Of a stretch of 64,000 nucleotides of DNA, positions 1,438 to 19,263 are shown in pieces. The stretch covers positions 62,001-126,000 of the forward strand of contig REDO01000051.1 of NCBI GenBank assembly GCA_007693435.1. The letters are read 5' to 3'. The notes under the pieces were generated by a model. That model did not search any database. It was not told the origin of the DNA and was given only the letters and a program-made list of their open reading frames with translations. The position numbers and the translations under genes are program-made. This DNA is from Salinarimonadaceae bacterium. Its GTDB lineage: Bacteria; Pseudomonadota; Alphaproteobacteria; Rhizobiales; Beijerinckiaceae. Position 1 is the first letter of the stretch. Each line of letters begins with the position of its first letter.

Positions 1438-1600
1438 GTCGACCTCTCGATTGAACGCACCGGATCGTAAATCTGTAGCGTGACCCGCACCCGTTTCAAC
1501 CTGTCTCGCTCCCGTTTCGGTCTTGTGCGCTGTTCGTGAAGCGTTTACATGTTGATCGCACTATACCGGTCAAGACCGGTGGAATTATGGGAGACGAGCC
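1438..1600. other. intergenic region upstream of the leuA leader
   Basis: This stretch separates the 276-residue gene (minus strand) from the leuA leader (plus strand) and must carry promoters in both directions. I could not pick a convincing -35/-10 pair. The only strong sequence feature is the perfect inverted repeat at 1565-1580, listed separately. Confidence 0.4.
1565..1580. repeat. perfect 7-2-7 inverted repeat, possible operator
   Basis: ACCGGTC, AA, GACCGGT form a perfect dyad 21 bp before the proposed leader start. It sits where a repressor or activator of the leuA transcript could bind. The loop is too short for a good RNA hairpin, which favours a protein site. The binding factor is unknown. 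Confidence 0.4.
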
Positions 1601-1705
1601 TTGGCGATCGCCGGCTCACAGCGTGAATTGACGAAGGGCCCCGCTGCGGCGGCGGCGCCTGCACGCGCGCTCCTTCCCGGCCTTCTTCTTCTTATCAGCC
1701 CCTGA
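1601..1705 (+). CDS. leucine-rich leader peptide upstream of leuA
   Basis: An open frame ends at TGA 1703-1705 with the C-terminus ALLPGLLLLISP. Four consecutive CTT leucine codons lie at 1682-1693, with two more Leu codons at 1670-1675. CTT is not the favoured Leu codon in this GC-rich DNA, so the run is striking. The frame opens at 1556 and has no ATG. TTG 1601 follows a GGGAG ribosome site by 7 nt and would give 34 residues; TTG 1628 (25 residues) is an alternative. The stop codon lies inside the left arm of a hairpin. This arrangement is that of a leucine attenuator; families of leu leaders in front of leuA are known in alphaproteobacteria. The start codon is uncertain. Confidence 0.55.
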   Translation: MAIAGSQRELTKGPAAAAAPARALLPGLLLLISP

Positions 1706-1790
1706 GGGCCGTCCGGGCGCGCGCGCCTTGGCCGTCAGGGGATCGACAAGAGCCGGGGCGCAATGCGCCCGTTCACGCCGTATTTCGTTT
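1699..1790 (+). promoter_or_regulatory. putative leuA transcription attenuator (two hairpins)
   Basis: Arm CCCCTGAGGGCC (1699-1710) pairs with GGCCGTCAGGGG (1730-1741) with one mismatch; the left arm contains the leader stop codon. A second hairpin, GGGCGC / AAT / GCGCCC (1756-1770), is followed by a moderately T-rich stretch (1779-1790) just before the leuA ribosome site. A ribosome stalled on the CTT run (1682-1693) would change the pairing of the first hairpin. Which structure is terminator and which antiterminator cannot be settled by eye, and the T-run is weak. Confidence 0.45.
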
Positions 1791-1803
1791 CGAGGAAACG
1801 CCA

Positions 1804-3369
<1,566 letters not shown>

Positions 3370-3446: not shown

Positions 3447-3506
3447 CCCGGGCGTTCGGCCTGATAGACTCTTGAATGAATAATGCAAAAATTGGGGAGA
3501 TACATG

Positions 3507-4859
3507 ATGGACGGAGCGAGCCCGGGCAGGGCGGCCATCGACGCGATGCAGCCCAACGATCTCAATTCATGGTGGATGCCCTTCACCGCCAACCGGTCCT
3601 TCAAGTCGAGCCCGCGCATCATCGCCCGTGCGAAGGACATGCACTACTACACCCGCGACGGACGCGCCGTGATCGACGGGTCCGCCGGTCTCTGGTGCTG
3701 CAACGCCGGTCATAACCGCGACCATATCGTCTCCGCCATCCAGGCGCAGGCGCAGGAGCTCGACTACGCTCCCCCGTTCCAGTTCGGCCACCCGGCCGGG
3801 TTCGCGGCCGCTGCGCGCATCGCCCAGTTGGCGCCGGGCGATCTCGATCATGTCTTCTTTTGCAATTCCGGCTCCGAGGCCGCCGACACGGCGCTCAAGA
3901 TCGCGCTGGCCTACTGGAACATCACGGGGCAGGGCCAGCGCACGCGTCTGATCGGGCGCGAACGCGGCTATCACGGCGTCGGCTTCGGCGGGATTTCCGT
4001 CGGTGGAATCGTCAACAATCGCAAATACTTCGGCACGCTTCTCGCTGGCGTCGATCATCTGCCGCACACCTATAACCGTCAGGAACAGGCCTTCTCGAAG
4101 GGCGAACCGGAATGGGGCGCGCATCTCGCCGACGAGCTTGAACGCATCGTGGCCCTGCACGATCCCTCGACGGTCGCCGCCGTCATAGTCGAGCCGATGG
4201 CCGGGTCGACGGGCGTCCTGCCGCCCCCGAAGGGCTATCTGAAGCGGCTTCGCGAGATTTGCGACAAGTATGGCCTGCTGCTGATCTTCGACGAGGTTAT
4301 CACGGGATTCGGCCGCCTCGGCTGCGCCTTCGCGGCGGAGCGCTACGGCGTCGTGCCGGACATGATCACCTTCGCCAAGGGCGTGAATTCCGGAACGGTT
4401 CCGATGGGCGGCGTTATCGTGCGCAAGCCGATCTACGACGCCTTCATGAAGGGGCCGCCGCACGCGGTCGAGCTGTTCCACGGCTACACCTATTCCGGGC
4501 ATCCGCTCGCCTGCGCGGCGGCGATCGCCGCGCTCGACGTCTATCGCGACGAAAAACTCTTCGAGCGCGCCAAGGCGATCGAAAGCGTCTGGGCCGACGC
4601 GGTGATGACGCTGAAAGACCTGCCGAACGTGCTCGATATCCGGACGCTGGGCCTCGTCGCCGCCATCGACCTTGCGTCGAAGCCCGACGCGGTTGGCGCC
4701 CGAGGGTTCGAGGCGATGGACCACGGCTTCAACGAAGCCGATCTGTTGATGCGCGTCACCGCCGACACCATTGCGCTGTCGCCGCCGCTGATCATGACCG
4801 ACAATCAGGTCGACGAGATCATCGACAAGATCGGCCGCGTCATCCGCGCGGTAGCCTGA
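3507..4859 (+). CDS. class III aminotransferase, omega-amino acid:pyruvate type
   Basis: A fold-type I, PLP-dependent aminotransferase that most resembles beta-alanine (omega-amino acid):pyruvate transaminases. Near the N-terminus is the family-typical W-W-M-P-F-T, then FFCNSGSEAADTALK (PLP phosphate binding), a Tyr-His-Gly motif (RGYHGVGFGG), LIFDEVITGFGR with the PLP-ring aspartate, and the Schiff-base lysine in TFAKGVNSG (Lys 291). The 450-residue length is normal. I chose ATG 3507 (or 3504, three bases earlier) because GGGGAG at 3494-3499 is well spaced; the more upstream ATG 3483 lies before the ribosome site. The exact amine donor is not predictable. It converges on phoB, 7 bp away. Confidence 0.85.
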   Translation: MDGASPGRAAIDAMQPNDLNSWWMPFTANRSFKSSPRIIARAKDMHYYTRDGRAVIDGSAGLWCCNAGHNRDHIVSAIQAQAQELDYAPPFQFGHPAGFAAAARIAQLAPGDLDHVFFCNSGSEAADTALKIALAYWNITGQGQRTRLIGRERGYHGVGFGGISVGGIVNNRKYFGTLLAGVDHLPHTYNRQEQAFSKGEPEWGAHLADELERIVALHDPSTVAAVIVEPMAGSTGVLPPPKGYLKRLREICDKYGLLLIFDEVITGFGRLGCAFAAERYGVVPDMITFAKGVNSGTVPMGGVIVRKPIYDAFMKGPPHAVELFHGYTYSGHPLACAAAIAALDVYRDEKLFERAKAIESVWADAVMTLKDLPNVLDIRTLGLVAAIDLASKPDAVGARGFEAMDHGFNEADLLMRVTADTIALSPPLIMTDNQVDEIIDKIGRVIRAVA

Positions 4860-19178: not shown

Positions 19179-19263
19179 GCCCAGGTGGCGGAATTGGTAG
19201 ACGCGCTGGTTTCAGGTACCAGTGGTGAAAGCCGTGGAGGTTCGAGTCCTCTCCTGGGCACCA
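19179..19263 (+). tRNA. tRNA-Leu (anticodon CAG)
   Basis: A complete class II tRNA of 85 nt. The acceptor arms GCCCAGG (19179-19185) and CCTGGGC (19253-19259) pair fully, the discriminator A and an encoded CCA end follow (19260-19263), and the D arm has GGCGGAATTGGTAGACGC. The anticodon stem CTGGT / ACCAG encloses TTCAGGT, giving CAG. The T arm contains GGTTCGAGTCC. Its 3' end forms the left boundary of the integrative element described below, which leaves the tRNA intact. Confidence 0.95.

Follow-up and report, generated by a model that had tools for sequence, protein, structure and literature searches.

A conserved leucine leader ahead of leuA in Alphaproteobacteria and its possible role in translational control

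The stretch of 64,000 nucleotides (nt) analysed here, from a Salinarimonadaceae bacterium (contig REDO01000051.1; hereafter the window), carries upstream of leuA, the gene of 2-isopropylmalate synthase, a short open reading frame (ORF) that carries four successive CTT leucine codons close to its end and has its stop codon inside the left arm of a hairpin, which we call hairpin A. Both features had been noticed by a first-pass annotation made from the letters of the window, and both are present (Table 1). That this ORF belongs to a leucine leader ahead of leuA is, given its conservation among relatives, close to certain. How it works is a different matter. We favour, with a probability of about 0.55, a leucine-responsive upstream ORF that acts mainly on translation, its own leucine codons masking the ribosome-binding site of leuA.

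According to this model, when leucine is plentiful the ribosomes would traverse the leader and depart, hairpin A would re-form, and the freed leucine codons would pair with the Shine-Dalgarno region of leuA, keeping the gene quiet. Under a shortage of charged tRNA-Leu, a ribosome would stall on the leucine codons and cover them, leaving the leuA ribosome-binding site free; we infer both the direction and the size of this response. Hairpin A, one arm of which contains the stop codon, would draw the leucine codons and the Shine-Dalgarno region together, and in sequences of the Rhodobacteraceae type its loop would pair downstream as a pseudoknot. The logic resembles that of the erm-type translational attenuators, where stalling of the ribosome on the leader releases a sequestered Shine-Dalgarno sequence further downstream; in the present case leucine shortage would be the signal, and the run of leucine codons itself would do the masking.

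The folding energy of the window's stretch is within chance (z -1.49; 16 of 200 shuffles of this GC-rich sequence are equally stable). Thermodynamics alone was thus rejected as proof of an element, and the evidence rests on comparison. We gathered 110 leuA loci irrespective of leaders (80 named loci and 30 from relatives of the window) and scanned upstream of the gene for leucine runs before a stop codon. A leucine score of at least 5 was reached in 91 of the 110, and four loci (L012, L038, L039, and L048) were added by eye, so that 95 were carried forward. Among the 15 set aside, L030, L071, and, by eye, L045 also have a leader; several AT-rich genomes, marine or Rickettsiales-like (L060, L063, L065, L073, L079, and L080), yielded none. 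An arm opposite the stop-codon segment was found in 93 of the 95 loci by a best-match search (at least 6 of 8), against 8.2 when the downstream sequence was shuffled and 5 or 7 when the left arm was shifted as a control. At a stricter level, the complement is present in 86 of the 95 loci, against 1.1 by chance.

The two arms of hairpin A covary. In an alignment of 92 of the 95 loci (A1), hairpin A has 94.4% paired cells, a share biased towards structure because the outer arm was picked by complementarity, and 11 of the 15 pairs changed on both sides. The cells with such double changes number 83, against 20.8 in shuffles, a value reached by none of 500. Sliding the alignment by one to three columns lowers the paired cells to 22 to 58%; at a slide of -1, 11 pairs likewise vary on both sides, over 52 cells. 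The inner helix, which was not picked by complementarity, has 91.4% paired cells and double changes in three of its four pairs. Compensatory changes include CCCC/GGGG to CCTC/GAGG, and the stop codon takes part in them: TGA mostly stands opposite TCA, and TAG opposite TTA or CTA. The leader peptide usually ends with LLLL(S/T/I)(R/C/S/G)P, and with LLLLSRL in Rhodobacteraceae. Conservation of the CTT run and of the hairpin among close relatives was one of the two points on which the first-pass annotation had staked its claim, and on this point the claim survives.

The choice of codons and their frame are also conserved. We collected 218 distinct leaders, whose stop codons lie 71-157 nt from leuA, and chose 176 representatives with dissimilar downstream regions (28 Rhodobacteraceae-type, 98 GGCC-type, which is the window's kind, and 50 others). 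Counting codons back from the leader's end, leucine stands at -6 in 215 of the 218 leaders and at -5 in 199. CTT accounts for 44% of the leucine codons between positions -7 and -5, against 5% in the leuA genes; at -4 it is found in 207 of 218, where the search itself demanded CTN. The first-pass annotation had taken the TTG start codon, together with a weak T-run, as a possible sign of an unusual variant. For the start codon the relatives do not bear this out: TTG is kept in frame in Salinarimonas- and Methylobacterium-like genomes. All 13 loci holding GAGCCTTG have GAGCC-TTG preceded by GGGAGA or GGAGAGA, and in each of them the leucine run shares the frame of this TTG. These loci represent 11 distinct places in Salinarimonas-like, Methylobacterium-like, and other related genomes, many of the collected loci extending too little upstream to show the block. 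The distance from the TTG to the leucine run varies from 93 to 132 nt and takes eight different values, which is hard to account for unless the ORF is translated from the TTG. The start codon sits in an inverted repeat from which the UU of UUG bulges out. Salinarimonas- and Methylobacterium-like genomes have this repeat too, and in one locus (L093) its GGC/GCC has undergone a matched change to GAC/GTC. It may have a role in the control of leader initiation.

To describe the distribution of the element, we used a covariance model, R1, of the leucine run and hairpin A (1682-1741 in the window); the window and some of the scanned genomes contributed sequences to it and match by construction. R1 is found in 265 of 298 genomes of the window's family, in 37 of 43 genera, and in 125 of 385 genomes of the class (E at most 0.01). 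A draw from the phylum gave matches in 48 of 299 genomes, all 48 inside the class, the share of the 299 that lies outside the class not being given. Among the listed misses are 13 genomes of one family without an R1 match (f190, at a guess the Rhizobiaceae). All 139 collected match loci, some of them collected twice, are upstream of leuA, and 136 are within about 420 nt of it. The leader lies some 400-480 nt ahead of the gene, rather than about 100, in L139 and L149 (403-444) and in L071, and the coordinates of L153 place its match just before leuA. Genomes that match in the class and family scans nearly always do so once; 15 family genomes have two matches, and in 14 of them a repeated search showed the second to be the first hairpin in antisense. 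Second copies of the element were considered and rejected for 14 of the 17 extra matches (in 17 genomes), each of which reads the leuA hairpin, a palindrome, from its antisense strand. The remaining three are weak and lie away from the leuA match (G068 C1:2723041 and C1:2944797; G820 C12:508564).

The evidence for masking comes from the complementarity between the leucine codons and the leuA Shine-Dalgarno region. We scored the best helix between each leucine run and the last 40 nt before its own leuA, and compared it with swapped partners in 5000 permutations. Own partners pair better in the 28 Rhodobacteraceae-type sequences (z 4.95; reversed-run control 0.69), in the 98 GGCC-type (z 5.36; control 1.90), and in 110 of the 148 non-Rhodobacteraceae sequences (z 7.83; control 0.34), and in each case none of the 5000 permutations reached the observed value. 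Other leader segments, used as controls, gave z from -1.8 to 2.9. The signal can be narrowed to codons -8 to -5 and the last 25 nt before leuA (z 4.56 in the 98 GGCC-type and 4.40 in the 50 others) and, in the Rhodobacteraceae-type, to codons -6 to -3 (z 4.34); at this finer split, some other choices of segment or region gave z 2 to 4.65 and reversed controls up to 2.4. Compared with shuffles of the downstream region, codons -8 to -5 gave z 5.8 (94 GGCC-type) and 3.3 (50 others). Strong helices are found in 69 of the 176 representatives, compared with 33.25 for swapped partners and 33 for reversed runs, and those overlapping positions -14 to -6 number 40, compared with 18.7 and 17, respectively. 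Hence, the pairing is an excess and is not universal. If the leucine run is masked to mimic a stalled ribosome, the Shine-Dalgarno is predicted to become more open: its mean unpaired fraction over the 176 loci goes from 0.37 to 0.54. Overall, this comparative signal, which is drawn from sequences, speaks for a helix between the leucine codons and the Shine-Dalgarno region of leuA, and thus for control of translation.

The leuA leaders lack an intrinsic transcription terminator. No terminator-like site was found in the window between 1400 and 1900, and none of the 95 leuA leaders combines a stem of 7 or more pairs with a T-run behind it (2.0 expected by chance). The same script, applied to the regions upstream of ilvI in 21 relatives, found a terminator in 16 (1.9 in shuffles), the window's genome among them, whose leuA has none. 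Allowing loops of up to 45 nt gives a stem with a T-run in 4 of the 95 leuA leaders; stems of 5 give 7 of 95, against 8.0 by chance, and 19 of 21 for ilvI, against 6.1. At least five T within the 8 nt after hairpin A are found in 4 of 95. A terminator after hairpin A or before leuA is therefore rejected on the scan of the window and the 0 of 95 leuA leaders, and the T-run that had been described as weak is in fact absent. The second hairpin reported near leuA does exist in the window, but it is not generally conserved: mononucleotide shuffles form local hairpins downstream that are about as strong (11.9, against 12.2 in the loci). No conserved alternative (antiterminator) helix was found, in a search that was not exhaustive. 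The first-pass interpretation of attenuation under leucine starvation thus stands as regards a conserved leucine leader and is unsupported as regards a transcription attenuator, and because the terminator is missing we do not class the element as a classical leu attenuator. As a side observation, the ilvI region of the window's genome (L114) appears to hold a classical branched-chain attenuator, with a leader ending in MRTLIVVIRTPSTERA and a hairpin AGGCCCCCGACGGGGCCT followed by TTTTTATT.

The loop of hairpin A offers a further contact in one group of sequences. In the 28 Rhodobacteraceae-type representatives it pairs downstream far better than in shuffles (z 9.9; reversed control 0.1): 22 of the 28 loops have GGCGC, all 22 are followed by GCGCC downstream, and L057, L072, and L076 show matched variants of the two sides. 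The same test gave z 2.1 in other sequences.

Several results weigh against the proposed translational control. A pseudoknot is unsupported in the window's own group (z -0.7) and was rejected there despite an enrichment of GCGCC downstream in the GGCC-type (63 of 98, against 20.7 expected from mononucleotide shuffles). A strong helix is found in just 69 of the 176 representatives, and the predicted pairing exceeds 0.3 in just 65. A group of 15 Bradyrhizobium-type loci shows no excess of pairing (13.71 against 13.53), nor do codons -8 to -5 of the Rhodobacteraceae-type when compared with shuffled sequence (z -0.5), and one control segment (-60 to -41) of the mixed non-Rhodobacteraceae set reaches z 2.9. 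Native and synonymous codons differ only modestly in their pairing with the Shine-Dalgarno (0.28 against 0.174, p 0.015). Pairing also fails to explain why CTT-ANC-NGC (1691-1699 in the window) is near-invariant before the hairpin, even in Rhodospirillales-like leaders with few leucine codons; for the invariant CTTA, sequences other than the Rhodobacteraceae-type showed no clear partner. The end CTT-ANC-NGC-CCC-TGA may be a dedicated stall or termination signal.

The window's own fold adds to these points. The ungapped pairing of the window scores 12.8, less than the 13.74 that swapped partners average in its group, the predicted pairing between its Shine-Dalgarno and leucine run is 0.00, and masking the run moves the unpaired fraction of the Shine-Dalgarno just from 0.45 to 0.51. 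The minimum-energy fold holds the leuA Shine-Dalgarno in a local hairpin, which by eye is absent in the same-genus relatives L082 and L083, and a base stem (GGC.UUCUUC with GAGGAA..GCC) is 1.7 kcal/mol worse than that fold. Since the window's own pairing is at chance level, the mechanism rests on the relatives and is extrapolated to the window's genome, which would have to behave as they do.

Other explanations account for part of these observations. Four cognate codons in the leader ORF, stable hairpins, and a position ahead of leuA would also suit classical ribosome-mediated transcription attenuation. There, as happens in the leu operon of enterobacteria, stalling of the ribosome tips the RNA towards an antiterminator at the expense of an intrinsic terminator. 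The ilvI regions of the relatives and of the window's genome do have leaders with terminators. The absence of such terminators from the leuA leaders, the rarity of T-runs after hairpin A, and the lack of a conserved second hairpin make this quite improbable for leuA. No U-tract is needed if the attenuation depends on Rho or is coupled to pausing: release of the leader ribosome would expose RNA to Rho, with hairpin A as a pause site or roadblock. The gap after the leader stop, free of an intrinsic terminator, fits this scheme, and Rho is weakly predicted for terminator-less mycobacterial cys leaders in passages of Seliverstov et al. 2005 (PMC1262725). Yet it gives no reason to expect that the leucine codons complement the Shine-Dalgarno region, and we regard it as unlikely.

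The leader ORF might also not be the sensor at all, the element being a structured RNA that binds a protein or a ligand, as has been preferred for actinobacterial leuA. The near-invariant CTT-ANC-NGC-CCC-TGA-G next to a covarying stem would be expected of such an RNA, as would the persistence of these nucleotides in the Rhodospirillales-like loci with few leucine codons (L038, L039, and L048). It leaves aside, however, the leucines at codons -6 and -5 of nearly all leaders, and a start codon, frame, and leucine run that stay in phase over eight leader lengths; its chances seem slim to us. As for a chance ORF among GC-rich hairpins without any regulatory role, with which the folding energy (z just -1.49) would agree, it is already refuted by conservation and covariation in the family and the class, and its probability is negligible.

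The features of the locus are collected in Table 1. The leuA of the window is 85% identical to that of Salinarimonas rosea and 90% to those of two genomes of the same genus. Immediately 5' of the leader, at 1565-1580, an ACCGGT-CAAG-ACCGGT repeat is a candidate operator. A 276-aa ORF on the minus strand (607-1437), divergent from leuA, has no Pfam match and NCBIfam matches far under the cut-off; 3' of leuA, at 3483-4859, lies an Omega-aminotransferase AptA-like gene with an NCBIfam score over the cut-off. At E up to 1, neither Pfam nor NCBIfam has a model that fits the leader peptide. The leader region has no match at the gathering score of Rfam, whose sole match in the window is a tRNA (19179-19260), and at E up to 5 it hits just one unrelated microRNA model.

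Table 1. Features of the leuA leader region, in positions of the window.
Feature	Position	Strand	Description
Shine-Dalgarno-like GGGAGA of the leader ORF	1589-1594	+	From sequence; GGGAGA or GGAGAGA precedes the TTG in 13 loci
Inverted repeat GAGCC-TT-GGC-GATC-GCC-GGCTC at the leader start codon	1596-1617	+	Possible start-codon hairpin
Leader ORF	1601-1705	+	34 codons; TTG start, MAIAGSQRELTKGPAAAAAPARALLPGLLLLISP, TGA at 1703-1705; peptide end ALLPGLLLLISP
Four CTT leucine codons	1682-1693	+	Regulatory codons; in the model also the anti-Shine-Dalgarno strand
Leader end CTT-ANC-NGC-CCC-TGA	1691-1705	+	Near-invariant in the comparison of leaders
Hairpin A	1699-1741	+	CCCCTGAG (1699-1706) / GTCAGGGG (1734-1741); stop codon inside the 5' arm; inner helices within
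Second hairpin GGGCGC-AAT-GCGCCC	1756-1770	+	From sequence and fold; GCGCC is the motif enriched 3' of hairpin A
Local hairpin CGTTTC-GAG-GAAACG	1786-1800	+	Encloses the leuA Shine-Dalgarno in the predicted fold of the window
leuA Shine-Dalgarno GAGGAA	1792-1797	+	Complements TTCTTC of the leucine codons, with one G-U
leuA, 2-isopropylmalate synthase	1804-3369	+	521 aa; Pfam HMGL-like and LeuA_dimer; relatives

Among known systems, the attenuator of the enterobacterial leu operon (Rfam family Leu_leader) also has leucine codons in a leader peptide before leu genes; here, in contrast, no intrinsic terminator or U-tract was found, nor an Rfam match at the gathering score. The alphaproteobacterial ilvIH attenuator, reportedly treated by Vitreschak et al. 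2004, shares with the leuA leader a branched-chain amino acid leader in the same genome, but the ilvI regions have a terminator with a T-run (16 of 21) and the leuA leaders have none. A leader coding sequence ahead of ilvIH is named in Caulobacter in a part of PMC4117421.

The closest parallel is the actinobacterial LEU element. Passages of Seliverstov et al. 2005 (PMC1262725) describe it as a leucine leader whose codons for leucine form a base stem with the Shine-Dalgarno of leuA, topped by a pseudoknot. The features in common, as far as those passages go, are a leader ORF with a leucine run upstream of leuA and the absence of other attenuator parts. As for the base stem with the leuA Shine-Dalgarno, its support here is statistical across relatives, with a strong helix in 69 of 176; in the window it amounts to just TTCTTC:GAGGAA, at the level of swapped partners and outside the minimum-energy fold. 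The differences from the LEU element as set out there are that the present one is found in Alphaproteobacteria, has its stop codon within a conserved hairpin, and shows support for a pseudoknot solely in Rhodobacteraceae-type sequences. Because the pseudoknot is unsupported in the window's group, we do not class the element as a member of LEU. The leader peptide also ends differently, with LLLLISP here, compared with the Corynebacterium (C. diphtheriae) leader MNRANLLLLRRGGSQA printed in PMC5784534. According to the same passages of PMC1262725, mutations of the Streptomyces leuA leader were inconsistent with classical attenuation and a protein regulator was preferred, a result that calls for caution, since it implies that conservation of leucine codons is no proof of sensing by the ribosome. 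We advance only tentatively, at somewhat less than even odds, the broader view of a widespread alphaproteobacterial leuA element in which one stretch would serve as leucine coding sequence and as anti-Shine-Dalgarno strand of leuA, with the stop codon in a covarying hairpin, the plan of the actinobacterial LEU element having been reached by descent or independently. Our literature search found no account of an alphaproteobacterial leuA leader, but Vitreschak et al. 2004 or Lopatovskaya et al. 2010 may already give one, and a variant acting on the ribosome-binding site is mentioned in excerpts of works citing the latter; the novelty of the element is hence not settled.

If the proposed control is real, an RNA leader matching no Rfam family in the window would control leucine synthesis in many members of the class, including Bradyrhizobium, Methylobacterium, Rhodopseudomonas, and Rhodobacteraceae. 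It is predicted to operate side by side with a classical ilvI attenuator in one cell, which would allow a direct comparison of leader control at two levels, translation and transcription, within a single pathway. The mechanism of the actinobacterial LEU element is left open in the passages of PMC1262725 cited above, and the parallel would provide a second set of sequences for testing it.
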